Of a DNA stretch of 64,000 nt, positions 1-7,646 are shown piece by piece. This stretch comes from Kaistella sp. (GTDB lineage Bacteria; Bacteroidota; Bacteroidia; Flavobacteriales; Weeksellaceae). The position numbers were made by a program, and so were the translations under genes. The notes under the pieces were generated by a model, which searched no databases, was not told where the DNA came from, and saw only the letters and a program-made list of their open reading frames with translations. The first letter of the stretch is position 1; every line of letters begins with the position of its first letter. The stretch lies in assembly GCA_019459085.1 (NCBI GenBank), contig JAIBEW010000026.1:1-64000 (forward strand), read 5' to 3'.

Positions 1-153
1 CTGGAAACTTTCACCCGAAAAAATAAAAACCTCCCTTAAATCTGGTTTCTGAGCGAAACCGAAGAATAAAAGAGGTTGGTTTTTAGGGTCATTCCCTGGA
101 ATTTATTGAAAAGGAAGGTTGTGCAACGGTTACCCTTGTTAGCAGAAGTATCT

Positions 154-765
154 TTAGTTTGTCTTTAACTGATAAACACTCATTTTCATGTAAGGTTTTC
201 GGCTTTTAATTTCTGAAATTATGTTGTTAAATTTTGTCTTTAAATCTTCAGTATTTATTTCAGCGTAAGGTTGTATGGTAGAACTAAAAATTATAGATTC
301 TTTTTGATCGTTAAGTGCAACAAAATTTTCCTCTGATTCAATTCCGTATTTTTCTTTTATGTATTGTCTTAATTCTCTATAATCTTTTTCGTTAGAATCT
401 TTAAGTTTTATATCATATTGCTGAATATTTTTCTCATTAAAATTTTTCAAAAGATATTCAGATTTTTTTTTCAATTTGATATTTGGTTTATTAAACATCT
501 TGGCCAAATCATCATAACTCATCTTTTTGTCTTTTAACATTGTCTTGTTTTTAGAACTTTCCAAATTTATTTCTTCGTTAGGATGAAATATAAATAAAGT
601 AACGAGTAATGAATCTTTTTTGCTTAAATCATTACTTTTTACAGGTTCCGATATTGTGTTCAAGTATAAACCATCATCTATTTTTTTCCATTCATAGTTT
701 TGTGAACAAACTTTTGTAGAAAAAAATAATAAGATTAAGAAAGTGATAATTTTGGAGGATTTCAT
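154..765 (-). CDS. Secreted protein of unknown function (cassette 1)
   Basis: A 203-residue protein not recognised as any family. Residues 1-21 form a clear signal peptide (basic start, hydrophobic core, cleavage after VCSQ-like region), so it should be exported to the periplasm or beyond. The rest is Lys/Asn/Glu-rich and hydrophilic without cysteine pairs or transmembrane segments. The ATG at 765 directly precedes the signal peptide. Flanking inverted arms (139-152 and 785-798) mark it as one cassette, and a repeat-borne promoter box lies 115 nt upstream. Its AT content is visibly higher than the core genes from 6.4 kb onward, consistent with acquired DNA. Confidence 0.75.
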   Translation of the reverse strand: MKSSKIITFLILLFFSTKVCSQNYEWKKIDDGLYLNTISEPVKSNDLSKKDSLLVTLFIFHPNEEINLESSKNKTMLKDKKMSYDDLAKMFNKPNIKLKKKSEYLLKNFNEKNIQQYDIKLKDSNEKDYRELRQYIKEKYGIESEENFVALNDQKESIIFSSTIQPYAEINTEDLKTKFNNIISEIKSRKPYMKMSVYQLKTN

Positions 766-824
766 TTAGGTACGAGTTTTTTTTGATATTTCTGCTAACT
801 TCTATGTATGTCTCATATAATAAG

Positions 825-854
825 ACCAATACAACCGTATTATGTTGTATGGGC
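825..854 (-). promoter_or_regulatory. Leader hairpin of the array repeat
   Basis: ACCAATACAAC pairs with GTTGTATGGG around a loop of about 8 nt. The same place in R2, R3, R5 and R6 also forms a stem, with changed sequence in both arms (for example ACCAAT/ATTGGT at 5440-5467). It sits between the promoter box and the next gene, so it would be in the 5' leader. Function unknown. Confidence 0.55.
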
Positions 855-880
855 CTCAAAAATATGATCTTAATAGCAAT

Positions 881-914
881 CAAATATAAGCAAGTTTCAA
901 TAATAATGAATCAA
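881..914 (-). promoter_or_regulatory. Repeat-borne promoter for cassette 1
   Basis: On the minus strand TTG (912-914), 23 bases, then TATATTTG (881-888). This fits the Bacteroidota pattern TTG/TTTG-N(17-23)-TAnnTTTG. The -7 box is 115 nt before the gene start at 765. Confidence 0.65.
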
Positions 915-1030
915 GAGTCAATAAATGTAAATGACCACCAAAATATCCGGAATTTATAGAGTTCGGGTGGGCTGGAATCTCGTTTGAAGGGGAAGATTGG
1001 AAAGCAGAAGGGAGAATTGTTCGTGCGGTA

Positions 1031-1723
1031 TTATTTTTTGTTTAGTATTTCTTCTTCTAAATTATTCCATCCGCTCCAAACACAATGTCCATTTTTAATT
1101 TGTTTAGTTTTATTTTCAAACTCAATTGAATATATTTCTGTAGTAGTGCATAAACCATCATCAGAAATGGCATAGAGCTGAGACTCGAATTTAATCAAAT
1201 TATCTATTTGTTTTTTATCAATTTGTTTTTGTTGATTATTATATAGAATGTAATAATTTCCGTTTTTATTTGAAATTGTTAGCGAGTCAGATATTTTATG
1301 AAAACATCCCTGAGTATTATAATTAATATTCACCGATTTATTTCTCAAGTTCTTTATAATTGATTTATTAGAATATTTTTCAAAATCAAATTGGTCAGGA
1401 AAAATTGCAATTGTATCTATTTCCTTTTTATTTTCTATTTTAAATTGTCTTTTTGTTTTTTCGCCAAATAAATTATAATATTCAAATACATAGTTACCTT
1501 TTTCTATACTGTCTAATTTTATTGGACTTTCTAAGAAAAGCCCATCTATATTGATGATTTTCTTTAATAGAATTCCGTTTTTATAAACTGTTAACTCACT
1601 CAAAGGAAGATTTCCACTGTTTTTATTCGCATTATCAATTTTCACAATTAATTTGGAAAATTTATATTCTTTGCAGCCCATTAAAGATAAAAATATTGAT
1701 AGAAATAGAATTTTCACTTTCAT
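1031..1723 (-). CDS. Lipoprotein of unknown function (cassette 2)
   Basis: A 230-residue predicted lipoprotein: an N-terminal hydrophobic stretch ends in the lipobox-like LMGC at residues 14-17, so Cys17 would be lipidated. The body is rich in Lys, Asn and Ile. Residues 31-100 look like beta-strand-rich, carboxypeptidase-regulatory-like sequence, but I do not recognise a family. Two later cysteines (TQGCFH, DDGLCTT) could form a disulfide. The start ATG is at 1721-1723. It lies between repeats R1 and R2, with a promoter box 115 nt upstream in R2. The downstream arm overlaps the region just before its stop codon. Confidence 0.75.
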   Translation of the reverse strand: MKVKILFLSIFLSLMGCKEYKFSKLIVKIDNANKNSGNLPLSELTVYKNGILLKKIINIDGLFLESPIKLDSIEKGNYVFEYYNLFGEKTKRQFKIENKKEIDTIAIFPDQFDFEKYSNKSIIKNLRNKSVNINYNTQGCFHKISDSLTISNKNGNYYILYNNQQKQIDKKQIDNLIKFESQLYAISDDGLCTTTEIYSIEFENKTKQIKNGHCVWSGWNNLEEEILNKK

Positions 1724-1752
1724 GTTTTGTCTGGTTGTTGTGATATTGCAGC

Positions 1753-2145
1753 TAACTTGGGTATGGGTCTCCTATCATAAAGATCAATACCCCTATTGTG
1801 TTGTATTGGTCTCATAAAAGTAACCTTCGTGAGCAATCAAATATAAGCAAGTTTCGATAATAATGAATCAAGAGACGATCATTGTAGATGACCATCAAAA
1901 TATTCGGAATTTTATGGAGTTTGAGTGGGACGTGATTTCGTTTGAAGGGTAAGCTTTGCAAGCAGAAGTGAGAAGTTAGAAAATTCCCGGGATGTTTTGG
2001 CTGAGATGAAGGACGGTTTGAGCGCCAATGGTGCGGGTATTGCTGAGGCGGGCTAAAAATACAAAAACTATATACTTACTAAAAACTTAATTAATCGCTA
2101 AAATCTTCGATGAAAACTTTATACATGTTTGTAGAAATACTTTGC
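1753..2145 (-). repeat. Array repeat copy R2 (full length)
   Basis: Full-length copy filling the 420-bp gap between genes 2 and 3. In + orientation: TAACTTGGGTATGGGTCTCC, a hairpin, the promoter box, a decayed ORF (ATG at 1863, stop at 1950-1952), the GAAGTTAGAAAATTCCCGGG segment, an A/T-rich part, and the terminal GTAGAAATAC element. No other gene is visible in the gap. Confidence 0.85.
1838..1871 (-). promoter_or_regulatory. Repeat-borne promoter for cassette 2
   Basis: Minus-strand TTG (1869-1871), 23-base spacer, TATATTTG (1838-1845). The box lies 115 nt before the start of the lipoprotein gene, the same spacing as in cassette 1. Confidence 0.65.
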
Positions 2146-2690
2146 TAGCTGAAGCTATTTTTGGAGTAGATTCTGTTTTTAAAAAGTCCAGCTTTCACTA
2201 TTTGTTGAGCATCTATAGTGTAATCTACTGTCCAACTAGGATCAATGTCTAAATTATTGTTAATTTCCAAAGTAAATTTTGCAAAGCCAGGACTGTTATT
2301 AGAATTTATTTCAATAGATTTTTCTGCTGTTACAATTTCTAATCCTCCTTGAAATCCTCTTCCCATACTTACATAAAATTGGTTAATCTCTATAATTTCT
2401 GTCCACTTTATATATTCCATCGAGTTATTTCTTGTTAGGTAAAATCCATCATTTACATATCTAAAGATTCCATCTATTTCATAAATTTTATCCATTTCCT
2501 TTTCCGCTTCCTCATAAGTTGTTGGAGTTTCGTCTTTGTTTGTGAGCTTCACAATGGTCAAAACAATCACAGCTAAACAAATGAAAACAATGAAAAAAGA
2601 AAGGTTTTTACTTTGAACAGGATAGTTGAAATAAACAAGACCAATAATTGCACAACATATAAAAATTAAAATCTTAGTTGAGTTTTTCAA
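2145..2690 (-). CDS. Small membrane protein of unknown function (cassette 3)
   Basis: A 181-residue protein with two adjacent transmembrane segments (about residues 7-24 and 31-48), then a soluble domain of about 120 residues. The soluble part resembles a PH-like or bacterial PH fold (GIFRYVNDGFYLTR..MEYIKWTEI), as in small membrane proteins annotated DUF in Bacteroidota; this is only an impression. The start is a TTG at 2688-2690, with no in-frame ATG until residue 67, well after both membrane segments. The stop codon lies inside the downstream inverted arm (2146-2159), so cassette boundary and gene end coincide. Confidence 0.7.
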   Translation of the reverse strand: MKNSTKILIFICCAIIGLVYFNYPVQSKNLSFFIVFICLAVIVLTIVKLTNKDETPTTYEEAEKEMDKIYEIDGIFRYVNDGFYLTRNNSMEYIKWTEIIEINQFYVSMGRGFQGGLEIVTAEKSIEINSNNSPGFAKFTLEINNNLDIDPSWTVDYTIDAQQIVKAGLFKNRIYSKNSFS

Positions 2691-2719
2691 TTTTGCAGTT
2701 TTATTTAAACGGTTTCGGC

Positions 2720-3112
2720 TAACTTGTATATATGTCTCCTATCATCATACCATTAACCCTAATGTGTGGTATTGGTCTCATGAATGTGATCTTCGTGAGC
2801 AATCAAATATAAGCAAGTTCCTATAATATTGAACCAACAGACGCTCAATGTAAATGACCATCAAAAGATCCGGGATTTTATGGAGTTTGGTAGTAAGGAA
2901 TTTCGTTTGAAGGGGGAGCTTTAAAATGCAGAAGTGAGAAGTTAGAAAATTCCAGGGATGCTTTGGCTGCGATGAAGCAGGGTTTGGACAACAACGGTTG
3001 GGTTTTCTGTTGGAGGGGATTATTATAACTGGTTTTTGTAACTATAACGAAATGAATCACGATCGAAAATCTTTATGATGTACACTTCAACCCCGCTAAT
3101 AGAAATACACTT
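2720..3112 (-). repeat. Array repeat copy R3 (full length)
   Basis: Full-length copy filling the 438-bp gap between genes 3 and 4, ending in CCCCGCTAATAGAAATACAC. Its two outer ends (GGCTAAC and TTATCTGCA) belong to different cassettes and do not pair with each other, while each pairs with the far side of its own gene. Confidence 0.85.
2804..2837 (-). promoter_or_regulatory. Repeat-borne promoter for cassette 3
   Basis: Minus-strand TTG (2835-2837), 23-base spacer, TATATTTG (2804-2811), 114 nt before the TTG start of the membrane protein gene. Bases around the boxes have diverged from R2 while the boxes and spacing are kept. Confidence 0.65.
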
Positions 3113-3128
3113 TTATCTGCAGTGCGAA

Positions 3129-3731
3129 TTATTTTTCTAACTTAATTTCAATTTTATCTACATTATTATAACCAATTATTGAATTTTTCTTTTTATCAAA
3201 TTTTGTCAAGATGAAATTTCCAATTTCACTGAGAATTTCGACTTTACCATTTTCTGTATTCAAATTAATTAAATATGTTTTTACTTCGTTGTTTTCCACG
3301 CTCAGTTTTTGCAGAATAATATTATTTTCAGATTTGAATTCAAAATCGGTAATATAGCAATCATTTAATTCCGTAATTCTTTTTTCATCTATGATTTTAA
3401 AAATCAAAAATTCGTCGTCGTATTCTGCAAGATTCCAAAAGAATACATATAATGGTTCATTTTCTTTAGATTCATCAACAGGATCATAATATTCTTTTAT
3501 TATATGGAAATTTCCATCACTGAATAAAACATTTTCGGTTTTGTAATTTTCAGTTGGTTTTATTCCAAGAATATTTGTTTTAATTTTCTCATAAATCCAC
3601 ATAATTGGAATTACAATAATTAACATAATTAGGGCAAATGGAACAAGGATAAATGGAGCAAAAAAATTTAAAACCCTATTCAGTAGATTTGTTTTGGGAA
3701 TTTTATAGGTTAAAATTTCAATGATTTTCAT
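3129..3731 (-). CDS. Membrane-anchored protein of unknown function (cassette 4)
   Basis: A 200-residue protein. An N-terminal amphipathic part (residues 1-18) precedes one long hydrophobic segment at about residues 22-46, followed by a soluble beta-rich domain of about 150 residues with Asp/Glu/Asn. No family recognised. The frame is open for 31 more codons upstream, but those lie in the cassette arm and repeat. The ATG at 3729-3731 starts cleanly before the membrane segment. The unit arms TTATCTGCA and TGCAGATAA match perfectly, and 15 of 18 positions match over the longer stretch. Confidence 0.7.
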   Translation of the reverse strand: MKIIEILTYKIPKTNLLNRVLNFFAPFILVPFALIMLIIVIPIMWIYEKIKTNILGIKPTENYKTENVLFSDGNFHIIKEYYDPVDESKENEPLYVFFWNLAEYDDEFLIFKIIDEKRITELNDCYITDFEFKSENNIILQKLSVENNEVKTYLINLNTENGKVEILSEIGNFILTKFDKKKNSIIGYNNVDKIEIKLEK

Positions 3732-3760
3732 AATCGCAATATTGGAAATCGGATTGCAGA

Positions 3761-4099
3761 TAACTTGTATATATGAGATCTTAGTCAGATCAAATATAAG
3801 CAAGTTCCGATAATAATTTATCAACAGACGATAAATGTAATGACCATCAAAATATCCGGAATTTTATGGAGTTTGGGTGGGATGGGATTTCGTTCGAAGG
3901 GGAAGCTTTTGCAATCAGAAGTGAGAAGTTAGAAAATTCCCGGGATGCTTGGCTGCGATGAAGGATGGTTTGAGCGGCAACGGTTAGGTATTTCTGTTGG
4001 CGGGGATTATTATGACCGCTCTTTGTAAATACAAAGAAATGTACAACTAGCGAAAATCTTCATGATATAAACTTTAACCCCGCTAATAGAAATAACGTG
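3761..4099 (-). repeat. Array repeat copy R4 (leader hairpin deleted)
   Basis: Copy filling the 381-bp gap between genes 4 and 5. About 55 bases holding the hairpin are missing just after TAACTTGTATATATG, so the promoter box is only 60 nt from the start codon. The rest runs to CCCCGCTAATAGAAATAACG. It contains TTATTATGACC and the GATGGTTTGAGCGGCAACGG part shared with R2. Confidence 0.85.
3791..3824 (-). promoter_or_regulatory. Repeat-borne promoter for cassette 4
   Basis: Minus-strand TTG (3822-3824), 23-base spacer, TATATTTG (3791-3798). Because the hairpin part of this repeat is deleted, the box is 60 nt from the start at 3731 rather than 112-115. Confidence 0.6.
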
Positions 4100-4112
4100 T
4101 TATGCGATGTTT

Positions 4113-4646
4113 TTATTTCCACTCACCAGTTTCAACCCAATTTTCAGCAGCTTTTCTCTTTTTCATATTTTCTTGATTATTTTCTCCGTATTCTACATTT
4201 AGATAATTGTATTTTGGAAATTTCTGTCGTATTTTAATAAGATTGTTTGGGAAAATTGTCCAGCTCGCATGGAAATTTTTTAAATCTGAATTATAAATAT
4301 TCTTCAGACGATTCAGTTCGTTGTTAAATTGTTTCAATGAGTCATTTTTATAAGTCTTCTCATTAAGGTAAAATTCTGTCCAAAGGAACTGATTTGCGTC
4401 TTTGGTTCGTTTAAGCATTGAATCAGATTTTGTTATAAGAGTTTTCACGCTATCATTTGCGTTTAACTTCTTAAGTAATAAATTTCTCTCTTGTAGCTTT
4501 AAATTAAGTTGTGAATATGATTGTTCCACTTTATTGTGATCTTCAATACAACTTTTGTTTAGGTTCAGGAAATAGAAATAAATTCCACCAAAAATTAGAG
4601 TGCAACAAATAAGAAAAATAAATAAACAACTTTTAAAAGTTTTCAT
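4113..4646 (-). CDS. Membrane-anchored coiled-coil protein (cassette 5)
   Basis: A 177-residue protein with one N-terminal transmembrane or uncleaved signal segment (about residues 6-27). A helical, heptad-like region rich in Lys, Asn, Leu and Glu follows to about residue 140, then a basic tail. No family recognised; the topology suggests a periplasmic helical domain tethered to the inner membrane. The ATG at 4644-4646 is preferred to the frame's earlier ATG, which lies in the repeat boundary. The unit arms GTTATGCG (4099-4106) and CGCATAAC (4673-4680) are perfect complements. Confidence 0.7.
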   Translation of the reverse strand: MKTFKSCLFIFLICCTLIFGGIYFYFLNLNKSCIEDHNKVEQSYSQLNLKLQERNLLLKKLNANDSVKTLITKSDSMLKRTKDANQFLWTEFYLNEKTYKNDSLKQFNNELNRLKNIYNSDLKNFHASWTIFPNNLIKIRQKFPKYNYLNVEYGENNQENMKKRKAAENWVETGEWK

Positions 4647-4676
4647 TTTAGAAAATGATTTAAATAAAATGACGCA

Positions 4677-4832
4677 TAACTTGTATATATGTCTCATATA
4701 ATGATACCAATGACACTAATGTGTGGTAGTGGTCTCGTCAATGTGATCTTAGTTAGAAATCAAATATAAGCAAGTTTCGATCATAATGATAAGTTCAAAA
4801 TTAAATACAACGAAATGATCAATTAGCGAAAG
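4677..4832 (-). repeat. Array repeat copy R5 (central deletion)
   Basis: A short copy. It keeps the TAACTTGTATATATGTCTC end, hairpin and TATATTTG box, then jumps from the CATAATGAT stretch to the AATACAACGAAATGATCAATTAGCG part, losing about 200 central bases. The stop codon of gene 6 lies inside its distal end. Confidence 0.75.
4761..4798 (-). promoter_or_regulatory. Repeat-borne promoter for cassette 5
   Basis: TATATTTG on the minus strand at 4761-4768, 115 nt before the start of gene 5. The usual TTG at 23 bases is lost by the internal deletion; the nearest TTG (4796-4798) is 27 bases away, so this copy may be weaker. Confidence 0.5.
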
Positions 4833-5383
4833 TCTATATGTTTAGTTATTTCCTGATATTTAAAATCTCCGAACTTTAAAATTCTTCCCCTCTTATCAAT
4901 CAATCCATACTTTTGACATTCAGTAACATAATGTTCATCGTCTTTTTCTTTGTTAATACATTTTTCTCCGAAAACTGCTTTATCATTATAGAACTGTTCC
5001 GCATATTCAAATTTCGGCGGAATAATAATTTTCCCTTTGTGATTTCTAAATCCAATTTTGTTATTTTCAATAAATCTTATTCTGTTTTCAGATAAATAAG
5101 CAGGTGAAGGGATTTTGTATTCTTCGTTTGGAACTTCAAAAATTTTGATACCATTAATATCAATCGCGTCCCAATTGTTTTCTCCACTAAAAATTTTAAA
5201 ATATTCGAGCTTATCAGGTTGAAAGGCAAGAATATATTTTTTGTCAAGGATTTTAAGTCTTTTCGCATCTTTATCTGCGATGTAGTTTAAACTTTTTTTC
5301 TGGTCATAAACAATTTGAAATTTTTTCTGTGCAGAACAAGAAAACAAAAATAAAGTGATCAATAAAAATCTCAAAAGTTTCAT
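4823..5383 (-). CDS. WG-repeat lipoprotein (cassette 6)
   Basis: A 186-residue predicted lipoprotein. The N-terminus has a hydrophobic core ending in LFSC (Cys16). The body holds at least two WG-type repeats: IGFRNHKGKIIIPPKFEYAE at about residues 111-130 and YGLIDKRGRIL near residue 160. WG repeats are beta-rich modules common in secreted Bacteroidota proteins; their exact role is not known. The start ATG is at 5381-5383. The last few codons run into the distal end of repeat R5, so the natural C-terminus may have been trimmed and replaced. This is the only unit without recognisable flanking arms. Confidence 0.75.
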   Translation of the reverse strand: MKLLRFLLITLFLFSCSAQKKFQIVYDQKKSLNYIADKDAKRLKILDKKYILAFQPDKLEYFKIFSGENNWDAIDINGIKIFEVPNEEYKIPSPAYLSENRIRFIENNKIGFRNHKGKIIIPPKFEYAEQFYNDKAVFGEKCINKEKDDEHYVTECQKYGLIDKRGRILKFGDFKYQEITKHIDFR

Positions 5384-5410
5384 TTGGACGACTTTTTTAA
5401 TAGCATTGGG

Positions 5411-5668
5411 TACAATTTATATATGTCTCCTATCATAATACCAATGACCCTATAGTGTTGTATTGGTTTCATGAATGAGATCTTCGTGAGCAACCAAATA
5501 TAAGCAAGTTTTGATAAAAATGAAACAACAGACGATAAATGGAAATGGCCACTAAAACATCCGGAATTTTATGGAGTTTGGGTGGGAGGGAATCTCGTTC
5601 GAAGGGGAAGCTTTAAAAGCAGAAGTGAGAGGTTAGAAAATTCCCGGGATGCTTTGGCTGCGATGAAG
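5411..5668 (-). repeat. Array repeat copy R6
   Basis: Copy in the 332-bp gap between gene 6 and the toxin gene. It has the hairpin ACCAAT/ATTGGT (5440-5467), promoter box and the GAAGTGAGAGGTTAGAAAATTCCCGG part, and ends after GCGATGAAG. The remaining bases to 5701 are unique and AT-rich. No gene is visible in the gap. Confidence 0.8.
5495..5528 (-). promoter_or_regulatory. Repeat-borne promoter for cassette 6
   Basis: Minus-strand TTG (5526-5528), 23-base spacer, TATATTTG (5495-5502), 112 nt before the WG-repeat lipoprotein start. Confidence 0.6.
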
Positions 5669-5715
5669 TATTATAAATTCGGCAATTTCTTATGCTTGCT
5701 ATTACCGGGCGTTTA

Positions 5716-6039
5716 TCAATCTATATAAGTCTCTTTTAAAACCGCTTTGACTTTAGAAATTTCTTTCTCCGTCAAGATTTCGAAAGTTTTTATAATTCTT
5801 TGTCGATCAACGGTTCTAATTTGGTCTAAAGCTATTTGTCCTTTTTTCTTATTGTGAAAGACTTCCACACGAGTTGGATAAGATTTATCACTGCTTGTTA
5901 TCGGCGCGACAACAATAGTTTGTAAATATTTATTCATTTCATTAGGTGAAATGATTACGCATGGCCGCGTTTTTTTAATTTCGCTTCCGACTGTTGGATC
6001 AAGATTTATTAAAACGATTTGATATTGCTTCAACTCCAT
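5716..6039 (-). CDS. mazF: MazF/PemK-family toxin, predicted endoribonuclease
   Basis: A 107-residue toxin of the MazF/PemK family, which cleaves mRNA as a dimer until bound by its antitoxin. Recognisable family features: the N-terminal beta strand with VLINLDPTVGSEIKKTRPC, where the Arg-Pro after the loop is a family hallmark, then VVAPITSS, and GQIALDQIRTVDRQRI. Length is normal for MazF. It follows the antitoxin gene with a 10-bp overlap (6030-6039), so the two are translationally coupled. The unit is bounded by perfect arms TTACCGGGC/GCCCGGTAA. Toxin-antitoxin cassettes are typical stabilisers of integron arrays. Start ATG 6037-6039. Confidence 0.93.
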   Translation of the reverse strand: MELKQYQIVLINLDPTVGSEIKKTRPCVIISPNEMNKYLQTIVVAPITSSDKSYPTRVEVFHNKKKGQIALDQIRTVDRQRIIKTFEILTEKEISKVKAVLKETYID

Positions 6040-6275
6040 TCCTCAAGATTTTCGTCTTCAAAAACATTGTTAATCAGCAACACGTCATCACCGTTTTTGT
6101 GCATTTTTTCGAAGGCCTTTTCCCAATCTTTTCTGGGTGCTGTTTTTGGCTTCAATATGATATAACCTTTTTCCAGAATAAGTTCAACCTTATCGGTTAT
6201 GTTATATTTTTCAAGTAGCGTTTTTGATAAACGAATACCTTTTGAATTTCCAATGGGAATAACCGAAATATCCAT
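6030..6275 (-). CDS. mazE: MazE/AbrB-type antitoxin
   Basis: An 81-residue antitoxin. Residues 1-48 form an AbrB/SpoVT-like swapped-hairpin DNA-binding domain (IPIGNSKGIRLSKTLLEKYN is the signature region). The acidic C-terminal tail (about residues 55-81, with FEDENLEEW) would wrap the MazF toxin. It is upstream of the toxin as in standard mazEF pairs, and the complex presumably represses its own promoter. Start ATG at 6273-6275. A promoter box of its own lies about 22 nt upstream (6298-6305), so it does not depend on a repeat-borne promoter. Confidence 0.92.
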   Translation of the reverse strand: MDISVIPIGNSKGIRLSKTLLEKYNITDKVELILEKGYIILKPKTAPRKDWEKAFEKMHKNGDDVLLINNVFEDENLEEWS

Positions 6276-6297
6276 AGCTCAATATTTTTTGTGAGTA

Positions 6298-6305
6298 CAA
6301 AGTTA
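6298..6305 (-). promoter_or_regulatory. Promoter -7 box of the mazEF cassette
   Basis: TAACTTTG on the minus strand matches TAnnTTTG, about 22 nt before the antitoxin ATG. No convincing -33 TTG at normal spacing. Confidence 0.5.
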
Positions 6306-6359
6306 TTACAATTTTTCGGTTTACCTAATTTTTTCGGAAATTTTATTTTAATTGCCCGG

Positions 6360-6387
6360 TAACTTGTATAGATGTCTCCTATCATAA
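6360..6387 (-). repeat. Array repeat fragment R7, right end of the array
   Basis: Only the outer 28 bases of the repeat remain (TAACTTGTATAGATGTCTCC and the following ATCATAA), then the sequence changes to unrelated DNA leading to the DUF1501 gene terminator. This is either a truncated copy or a simpler attachment site at the array's promoter-proximal end. Confidence 0.7.
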
Positions 6388-6428
6388 GAAGCTTTGGGAG
6401 GTGGATTCCAAGACTGAAAAGATATAAA

Positions 6429-6460
6429 CAAAAGAACCACAGCTGATCGGTGGTTCTTTT
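6429..6460 (-). terminator. Intrinsic terminator after the DUF1501 gene
   Basis: AAAAGAACCAC (6430-6440) pairs with GTGGTTCTTTT (6450-6460) over a 9-base loop. On the minus strand it starts at the stop codon and ends in a T-rich run. Confidence 0.75.
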
Positions 6461-7646
6461 ATACAAAGTCATAAATTCCGTTTTTCCAGCCTAAAATTTT
6501 GGAGGAATCGGCACCCAGCCAGTTTTTCAAAACGGTTGCGTACACTTTCCGGAAATCTTCAGTGTAAATCAGATCCCCGTCATTGAGGTTTTCCAAATCG
6601 GGCAAAGGGTTGAGCATTCCTTTCTTTTTTAATCCACCTGAGACCAAAAACATCTGATTTGCGGTGCCGTGGTCTGTTCCTTTGCTGGCATTTTGGGAAA
6701 CACGCCGGCCGAATTCGGAGAACGTCATGATTAAAACATCCTTAAATCTTCCCTGGGATTTTAAATCTTTTACAAAGGCTTTCACGGCTTCATTGATTTC
6801 GGAAAAAAGCTGGGACTGTTTTTGATTCTGATTCACATGGGTATCAAAACTTCCGACGGAAAGGTAATACACTTTCGTATTGATATCAGAATTAATGAGG
6901 GAAGCAATGTTCTTAAAATCCTTTCCTAAAGCCGAATCGGGATACGTTGCGGTAGTGGCTTTCGCCTTGCTTTTTTCAAAAATATATCCGGCATTGCTGA
7001 TGGTAGAACCCATCGTCTGGTAAAGATATTCTACCGTTTCATCGTCGTGATGATGGGTATCGTAAAGCGATTTGAAGTATTTTTCCTGCGAAGTCTGATA
7101 CAGTCTTTTTGGATCTTTGAAGGCAAAGGCTTTTTTCTCTTTCCCTTTCAGCGCCAAACTCAACATGTCGTCAATTTCGAGTGCCTGTGTCGGATGATCG
7201 CAACGGTAACAGGCTTCATCGAGGTATCTTCCGACCCAGCCTGTTTCTAAAAATTCGTCGCTTTTGCTGGCGGAATGCCAAATATCCATACTTCTGAAAT
7301 GCGATTTGTCCGCATTTGGATAGCCTACATTATTCATAACGGCAAGCTCCCCTCCGTCAAAAAGTTCTTTAAAATAGCTTAGACTGGGATTGATTCCTGC
7401 TTCATCACTGAGACACAGGGAATCTTTGATCGCAATGGTCGCTCTTTCCCGAAAATAAATATCGTTTTGCGTGGGGATAATGGTGTTTAAACCATCATTT
7501 CCGCCACTGAACTGGAGGACTACCAATATCCTGTTTTCTTTGTCCAGAACGTCGGGCAAAGTCATGGCCTGCAGAAAATTGGGAATCATGAGAGAAGCCG
7601 CAGCCAAAGAAGATACTTTGAGAAAATCTCGTCTTTTGATTAACAT
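6459..7646 (-). CDS. DUF1501 family protein
   Basis: A 395-residue DUF1501 protein. Residues 1-25 look like a Tat signal (KRRDFLKVSSLAAASL: twin Arg followed by a hydrophobic stretch), so export in folded form is likely. The sulfatase/alkaline-phosphatase-like core is visible as VLQFSGGNDGLNTIIP near residue 45, SHFRSMDIWHSAS near 120, and TFSEFGRRVSQNASKGTDHG near 315. Substrate is not known. It sits 49 bp after the DUF1800 gene on the same strand; DUF1800-DUF1501 pairs are widespread in Bacteroidota and Planctomycetes and are presumed to act together in the envelope. Confidence 0.9.
   Translation of the reverse strand: MLIKRRDFLKVSSLAAASLMIPNFLQAMTLPDVLDKENRILVVLQFSGGNDGLNTIIPTQNDIYFRERATIAIKDSLCLSDEAGINPSLSYFKELFDGGELAVMNNVGYPNADKSHFRSMDIWHSASKSDEFLETGWVGRYLDEACYRCDHPTQALEIDDMLSLALKGKEKKAFAFKDPKRLYQTSQEKYFKSLYDTHHHDDETVEYLYQTMGSTISNAGYIFEKSKAKATTATYPDSALGKDFKNIASLINSDINTKVYYLSVGSFDTHVNQNQKQSQLFSEINEAVKAFVKDLKSQGRFKDVLIMTFSEFGRRVSQNASKGTDHGTANQMFLVSGGLKKKGMLNPLPDLENLNDGDLIYTEDFRKVYATVLKNWLGADSSKILGWKNGIYDFV

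Follow-up and report, generated by a model that had tools for sequence, protein, structure and literature searches.

The window analysed here comprises 64,000 nucleotides of a Kaistella sp. contig (JAIBEW010000026.1). Seven units in the same orientation, separated by a common repeat, are found at positions 138–6388, as had been recognised in a first-pass annotation made from the sequence alone. By its features, the locus is to be regarded as an array of cassettes without an integrase, belonging to an integron-like system. The individual elements are as follows.

1..137 (end approximate), + strand: right end of an insertion sequence (IS); window positions 1–155 are 97% identical to an IS end in L006
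138..799, − strand: cassette 1; ORF 154–765, secreted-looking protein of unknown function; arms 10/10
797..1016, − strand: module A1; hopJ 3′ remnant, TATATTTG at 881–888, attI
1019..1756, − strand: cassette 2; ORF 1031–1723, lipoprotein-like; arms weak (4/10)
1751..2020, − strand: module A2; TATATTTG at 1838–1845
2022..2153, − strand: diverged attC of cassette 3, overlapping the cassette 3 end arm
2144..2723, − strand: cassette 3; ORF 2145–2690, membrane-type protein
2718..2987, − strand: module A3; TATATTTG at 2804–2811
2988..3121, − strand: attC of cassette 4, class B
3112..3764, − strand: cassette 4; ORF 3129–3734
3765..3973, − strand: module A4, attI shortened; TATATTTG at 3791–3798
3974..4108, − strand: attC of cassette 5, class B; top-scoring attC of this genome
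4099..4680, − strand: cassette 5; ORF 4113–4646
4677..4789, − strand: module A5, consisting of attI and the promoter-like part; TATATTTG at 4761–4768
4823..5416, − strand: cassette 6; ORF 4823–5383, WG repeat, lipoprotein-like; end arm unrecognisable
5418..5668, − strand: module A6; TATATTTG at 5495–5502
5701..6363, − strand: cassette 7; PemK/MazF-family toxin 5716–6039, putative antitoxin 6030–6275
6364..6388, − strand: attI remnant of 25 nt upstream of cassette 7

No attC was recognised for cassette 2, and the stretch from module A6 to about position 5702 is read as an attC remnant. The attI remnant is followed by a DUF1501 gene (6459–7646). A Pfam search of the cargo revealed the PemK/MazF toxin in cassette 7 and the WG repeat in cassette 6, with nothing above the cut-off in cassettes 1–5; an Rfam search of window positions 1–7000 gave no match. 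The first-pass annotation had described the cargo as small secreted, membrane or lipoprotein genes of unknown function plus a toxin-antitoxin pair. The IS to the left of the array, which we take to be IS1182-like, has a transposase with DUF772 and DDE domains, and a second copy of the IS left end terminates contig C23.

Spacers, private arms and attC sites

The spacers are long because each holds an attC-like site of about 125 nt, or its remnant, together with a second module of about 110–270 nt, designated A. Sites of this attC-like kind form long arrays in relatives. A spacer of about 390 bp, formerly taken for one long attC, was resolved into an attC-like site of ordinary length (121–135 nt) and an attI/promoter-like-box module, and the idea of a single long attC was dropped. 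Module A contains a remnant of the hopJ gene, the box TATATTTG and, at its right end, sequence homologous to the attI found beside recombinases of relatives. It precedes six of the seven cassettes, while cassette 7 keeps the attI remnant instead. Two modules with shortened attI still hold cassettes. A was also considered as a coding gene; the frame turned out to be a decayed, interrupted 3′ part of hopJ.

The TATATTTG box, which we take to be promoter-like from its resemblance to a promoter consensus, occurs in 6/6 spacers (five at 86–89 nt before the cassette start, one at 34 nt), and the wider motif TAnnTTTG is found 11 times in 6400 bases vs. 3.5 times in mononucleotide shuffles. The region upstream of cassette 7 has no TATATTTG box. 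At the sequence level, similar boxes that might act as a Pc promoter for the cassettes are present both in the attI regions of relatives and in the window spacers.

When the first 10 bases of the cassette arms were compared, a clear match was seen in five of the seven cassettes (10, 8, 9, 8 and 9 for cassettes 1, 3, 4, 5 and 7), not in six as originally proposed, since cassette 2 reached only 4/10 and no end arm could be recognised for cassette 6. Mismatched pairings in the window (36 in all) averaged 5.3/10 and five of them reached 8 or 9; arm pairing within the window is therefore suggestive, not decisive. The rule is far clearer in relatives. For 140 cassettes from 17 array segments (173 sites minus two partial ones; 153 adjacent pairs minus 13 failing length or anchor limits) the mean was 9.25/12 for a cassette's own arms vs. 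6.65 for other pairings, and at least 9/12 was reached in 99 of the 140 own pairings vs. 12% of 19,460 others. Complementary R″/R′ arms private to each cassette, by which integrons are recognised, are hence present in this system. Among the sites with well-paired arms (104 of 140) the bottom strand gives the more stable fold (−27.2 vs. −22.0 kcal/mol), and in 48 chosen sites double changes occur in 6 of 15 stem pairs while two stem pairs are near-fixed G.U wobbles.

Recombinase and attI in related genomes

High-scoring recombinases were examined at 35 distinct loci; class-B attC sites were found at 18 of these and not found, within the stretch read, at the other 17. The 5′ end of the array faces the recombinase in 18/18 loci having both; many loci were fetched because attC already matched there, which bears on the co-presence and not on this orientation. 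The attI of relatives consists of a conserved stem-loop and CATATAAACAAG^TT about 90–140 nt after the stop of type-ii recombinases. Thus, attI adjoins a recombinase gene in relatives, whereas the attI copies of the window stand without one.

The linked tyrosine recombinase has no IntI additional domain and falls outside the canonical IntI clade. The tree carries long-branch warnings (Xer, 2A3V, and the joining of IntI with two IS-linked recombinases), so that the exact place of IntI relative to the new clade is unsure. The additional domain has been reported as required for integron activity; a recombinase without it may handle attC differently. To all appearances the system works like an integron, yet it fails one defining feature of IntI.

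A scan of the whole genome (G000) for a recombinase linked to the repeats had been proposed. Three genes with PF00589 (307, 300 and 495 aa) are present, none recognised as being of this kind, and a search with the recombinase alignment at E ≤ 1e−75 gave no match. With no such enzyme detected, the array has probably become frozen. No strong match was obtained in the relative G026 either; this genome has an interrupted recombinase-like frame at C2:139194.

An attC cluster without nearby integrase, here with attC of a divergent kind, is what defines a CALIN, and arm logic, G^TT crossover and site size would all suit a canonical chromosomal integron remnant with unusual spacers. We consider this explanation very unlikely, given that the linked recombinases do not group with the IntI clade and are without its insertion, and that canonical IntI above the TIGR02249 cut-off was detected in 0/36 genus genomes. 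The cut-off was passed in 105 of 395 genomes of the phylum; a single one of these shares the class of the present genome, and none shares its family or order.

Cassette exchange and the row of A modules

Cassette 4 with its attC matches positions 3235–4005 of L088, a plain array of another species, at 96% over 773 bp. The match extends from GTT to CCGTT without module A. Since it stops at the G^TT crossovers and omits A, this cassette moved alone and sits at attI; travel of A together with its cassette was ruled out in this case. Exchange at G^TT is also seen in genome G021, where three copies of one attC are identical up to GTTAT and then continue into three different cassettes. Among the loci compared, only one of the seven window cassettes was seen elsewhere.

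Full arrays of A were seen in two genomes only, the present one and that of a relative; a third genome has two partial copies. In a tree, the A copies from G000 are intermixed with those from G026, and their similarity is about the same between the genomes (mean 0.72) as within them (0.69 and 0.74), while none of the window's cassette genes was found in the G026 array. Docks therefore persist while the cargo turns over. A pattern of point mutations only, with scattered armless repeats, which would have spoken against gene capture, was not seen in the comparison, which covered genomes of other species.

A simple state of the locus is seen in G008 (L173), with the order hopJ, attI, cassette, attC, cassette, one further gene and pnp; neither recombinase of G008 is located there. 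We hold it as probable, with good confidence, that the window locus represents an integron-like capture system, as a cassette array in which a hopJ-attI platform was multiplied and cassettes were docked singly. The gene-capture reading of the first-pass annotation is partly supported in this form: homologues show attI, arrays of attC with a recombinase linked to them, boundaries at G^TT and one shared cassette. The 390-bp spacer is not a single long attC, however, and no recombinase of this kind was found in the genome. In the proposed mechanism, the tyrosine recombinase would act on folded attC sites, release the cassettes as circles and insert them at attI, cutting at G^TT. The docking site lies upstream of hopJ, between hopJ and pnp, and not beside a recombinase gene, so that the enzyme must presumably have worked in trans. 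Most of hopJ would have disappeared from the platform in this lineage, and the platform would have multiplied to give the row of A modules, at which cassettes were docked one by one. Because A also brings the promoter-like box, almost all cassettes would occupy a first position and be expressed, whereas an ordinary array silences distal cassettes by their distance from the promoter.

The A modules might instead be no docking sites, tandem A-cassette-attC units having been spread by homologous recombination between 270-bp repeats, with the boundaries as old relics. The length of the copies would suffice for exchange by RecA, G000 and G026 have an attC-A junction in common (window 1754–2138 vs. 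L082 18468–18849), and neither genome has a strong recombinase match, the G026 frame being interrupted. This remains an unlikely account, as cassette 4 arrived bounded by G^TT and lacking A, and the ends of A are homologous to attI beside recombinases. It is doubtful, too, that A is a mobile promoter/attI cassette which inserted at existing attC-cassette junctions and gave silent cassettes promoters afterwards. By reading, 8 of 23 matches keep the left end of A, a TT(G/A)GCGC-like sequence beginning at the attC crossover, and so does one further copy in G289; moreover, A is found behind attC sites of more than one class. Such mobility is at odds with the left ends altered or lost in the remaining 15 copies and with the lack of any A-A junction among the copies read, and cassette 4 fits better to insertion at a pre-existing A.

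Distribution and relation to known systems

The strand asymmetry of the present sites comes from near-fixed A.C/G.T positions, whereas canonical attC sites use extrahelical bases. Further differences from integrons and CALIN are the recombinase type described above, the longer private arms and the attI before 6/7 window cassettes. Shared with integrons and CALIN are cassettes in one orientation, private start and end arms, the G^TT crossover, an attI with promoter-like box beside the recombinase, integrase-less clusters, and an attC of about 125 nt with the better-folding bottom strand (PMC9024848). Extra attI copies inside arrays are also known from delta-attI-type cassettes of class 1 and 2 integrons, mostly as 14–18 nt pieces (one type 244 nt) replacing attC; one complete attI1-cassette-attI1 example is described, and excision of an engineered attI1-aadB-attI1 reached 100% (PMC12901181). 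Here, in contrast, six modules of about 110–270 nt with attI and promoter-like box lie before cassettes. Vibrio superintegrons likewise have promoters within the array, on scattered gene-less cassettes with measured activity (PMC11014356), whereas the boxes here are predicted, occur in 6/6 spacers and lie inside the attI module. The Treponema chromosomal integrons named as atypical in the same source belong to another phylum and are reported as having integron integrases (PMC11014356). An IntegronFinder 2.0 screen recorded one complete integron in Bacteroidetes proper (PMC9024848).

The search for the repeat in relatives, which had been proposed as a check, was positive: a spacer query of 422 bp, made up of A and a class-B attC, matched 31 of 36 genus genomes. 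An attC model built from genus sequences matched 36/36 genus and 152/316 family genomes; attC was present in 75/79 family genomes with a strong recombinase match vs. 77/237 without (phylogeny uncorrected). The recombinase-attC pair is thus common across one family and present in another, while canonical IntI in the phylum is almost wholly confined to other classes. The chances seem about even that Bacteroidia possess their own capture system parallel to integrons, with a separate tyrosine-recombinase lineage lacking the IntI insertion and an own attI/attC plan, on chromosomes and at least one plasmid, and that one lineage evolved integrase-free docking arrays, with almost as many sites as cassettes, by which captured genes would stay expressed from a first position. 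If active, the system would represent a large reservoir of mobile cassettes so far uncounted. The system is also a test of whether attC recombination truly requires the IntI insertion, and with its predicted promoters the docking array would offer a natural answer to silent distal cassettes.

Twenty recombinase loci were fetched for the search outside the family, 19 of them from beyond it. No clear array was seen beside the recombinase at 15 of the 19, some having weak or distant repeats. At the other four (L218, L220, L231 and L237, all of one genus) attC-like arrays were read, and these arrays of another family follow a similar plan with different sequence.

Spacer elements and cassette boundaries

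In a search of 36 genus genomes, including that of the window (G000), a 422-bp spacer probe resolved into two elements, A and B. Element B, an attC-like site of about 125 nt, is present in many of these genomes, and dense arrays elsewhere carry one B site per 0.5–2 kb in nearly uniform orientation; 41 sites were counted across two adjoining stretches (L080 and L081) of genome G014. Near-full matches to element A (about 270 nt) occurred, among the matches listed for the genus, only in G000 and G026.

Arm statistics were calculated for 17 array segments with 173 B sites, yielding 153 adjacent pairs and 140 usable cassettes with a median of 641 bp and sites of 121–135 nt. The first bases of a cassette pair with its own last bases at 9.25 of 12 positions compared to 6.65 of 12 with those of other cassettes, and one single position is mismatched in 99% of cases. 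Furthermore, one attC of G021 exists in three copies, which are identical through GTTAT, beyond which each leads into a different cassette. Arm pairing and boundary pattern follow integron logic. Twice in the G021 array (L070 9122–9441; L071 10997–11314) a forward attC is followed about 50 nt on by a reversed attC, both reversed copies being the same site with the same flank.

Folding favours the bottom strand in the 104 of 140 circularised sites whose arms pair well (mean −27.2 kcal/mol, against −22.0 kcal/mol for the top strand); 40 of these 104 gave a mean of −10.6 kcal/mol after mononucleotide shuffling. Among 48 chosen attC sites, 6 of 15 stem pairs were changed on both sides, and two pairs are G·U in 46/48 and 48/48 sites. 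Since these near-fixed pairs are A·C mismatches on the other strand, strand asymmetry is built in, via wobbles; in canonical attC sites extrahelical bases are used.

Recombinases linked to the arrays

The integron-integrase profile TIGR02249 matched in 36/36 genus genomes, every time below its cut-off, and is not specific at the threshold used, because matches were also obtained in 14/14 control genomes. Using a sharper profile, we read 35 distinct loci whose recombinase scored high, many of them chosen on attC already seen there; 18 contain class-B sites and 17, several of them at contig ends, have none in the stretch read. The 5′ end of the array lies toward the recombinase gene in all 18 loci, at a distance of 0.5 to 7.4 kb, and one of these arrays includes reversed sites too. 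The recombinase gene is divergent from the cassettes in type i and codirectional with them in type ii.

All four proteins of the new family tested were under the cut-off of the IntI profile; with the NCBIfam profile 'site-specific tyrosine recombinase/integron integrase' three of four exceeded the cut-off by 1.5–6.3 bits and one was 0.5 bit under. About 40 residues of 2A3V, the IntI insertion among them, are absent from the one new-family recombinase compared. A 48-row tree, with long-branch warnings, placed the new recombinases in a clade (97/87) separate from canonical IntI (100/99), and in the underlying alignment the IntI insertion is found in ten of ten full-length IntI rows and in no new-family row. 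A 2021 classification describes this insertion as not fully conserved within its integron-like subgroup, yet essential for integron function. By the IntI criterion the array system is not a member of the integrons; judged from its sequence organisation, it would work like one.

Chryseobacterium sp. SNU WT5 has a 66,482-bp plasmid that bears a type-ii recombinase together with its attI and attC sites (L122, G025 C2; NZ_CP041688.1 16035–17084), possibly a mobile form of the capture system. Across 76% of its length, a recombinase of Acinetobacter plasmids, named TnpF in one record, is 48.7% identical to the new family. A different tyrosine recombinase was found at five positions, each some 75 nt away from an attC:

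L110 6592–7783, attC-adjacent recombinase
L110 9751–10959, attC-adjacent recombinase
L126 7595–8784, attC-adjacent recombinase
L126 15637–16823, attC-adjacent recombinase
L127 2238–3426, attC-adjacent recombinase

In L040 it neighbours a transposase that we take to be IS91-like, and it may represent a mobile element with a link to attC.

Module A and the hopJ-pnp locus

About 90–140 nt past the stop codon of type-ii recombinases a stem-loop, in most cases ending ...GACATATAAACAAG^TT (^, crossover point), precedes the first cassette. The right end of module A, ...GAGACATATATACAAG^TT, is homologous to this attI end, and module A is thus a predicted attI. The same attI half was found upstream of intact hopJ in G005, G008, G020, G027 and G034. 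The G008 locus reads hopJ, attI, cassette, class-B attC, cassette, an additional gene and pnp, a gene named here from its sequence; both recombinases of this genome are away from the locus. Since attI adjoins intact hopJ and the G008 recombinases lie elsewhere, hopJ-pnp resembles an ancient orphan dock, and A looks like this dock with hopJ cut to a 3′ remnant. Module A would supply a predicted promoter, and the recombinase would act in trans. A profile search gave no strong recombinase match in G000 and G026; G026 has one interrupted recombinase-like frame.

Module A is multiplied between pnp and the DUF1501 gene in G026, and likewise in G000 (DUF1501 gene at window 6459–7646) if contigs C23 and C30 join. 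The window is C30 of this draft genome (2.57 Mb, 99.9% complete, 35 contigs). C23 has further array units and pnp, and its terminus (111068) is formed by the left-hand end of the insertion sequence that opens the window with its right-hand end. The array seems to continue beyond window base 1 into C23, both contigs probably being joined at this element. This insertion sequence twice adjoins a cassette-end GTTAGC arm in the array (L006 11300–13105; L006 15960–16069 with window 1–137) and may use attC as its target.

Copies of A from different genomes are interleaved in a tree. Two partial copies separated by 45 kb occur in G289, a genome of another genus, which has a recombinase of the new family on a different contig. 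The intervening stretch of about 45 kb (C13 280174–325593, L169–L172) carries a 405-aa tyrosine integrase and looks like a mobile element that used or split the dock. The attC model detected 11 sites in G000 (E ≤ 0.01), four of them in a second, decayed plain array (C27:58372–61516, L258), where neither A (blastn) nor a recombinase (tblastn) was found within the stretch read, so that A appears to belong to the hopJ locus.

Cassette 4 (window 3112–3764) with its attC is 96% identical to L088 of G015 over 773 bp. The similarity is bounded by GTT at the start and CCGTT at the end, the flanks are unrelated and L088 has no A. For seven of eight window cassette proteins tblastn (1e-5) found no relative in the loci read, the G026 array included, and the C23 cassettes (blastn only, matches >150 nt listed) gave matches exclusively within A. 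These comparisons suggest that cargo moves and docks stay. The attC of cassette 4 (window 2988–3121 vs. L088 3235–3363) is visibly more diverged than the ORF.

Distribution in the family and phylum

A recombinase at E ≤ 1e-75 was detected in 119 of 316 Weeksellaceae genomes, strong matches (E ≤ 1e-125, our own cut; mostly full-length) in 79/316 and attC-model matches in 152/316. With kinship ignored and both samples taken as the same genomes, attC occurs in 75 of 79 strong-recombinase genomes compared to 77 of 237 without. In the phylum sample the recombinase (E ≤ 1e-75) was present in 109/395 genomes and canonical IntI above cut-off in 105/395, one of the latter from the same class and none from the same order or family.

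For Bacteroidetes proper, IntegronFinder 2.0 (PMC9024848) mentions In0 as reported earlier and then a single complete integron, that of Salinibacter ruber. A Bacteroidetes/Chlorobi group is listed (Nemergut 2008), Bacteroidota are among the integron-bearing phyla (Ghaly 2022), and delta-attI cassettes are known extra attI copies (PMC12901181). Among the entries listed in our search of open-access articles, none describes arrays of this kind in Weeksellaceae or one attI per cassette.

Outside the family, four loci (L218, L220, L231, L237) from one genus of another family of the order combine a recombinase, a promoter-like box, an attI with stem-loop and attC-like arrays; the other 15 loci showed no clear array. 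The arrays of these four loci are unrelated in sequence and have the same plan.
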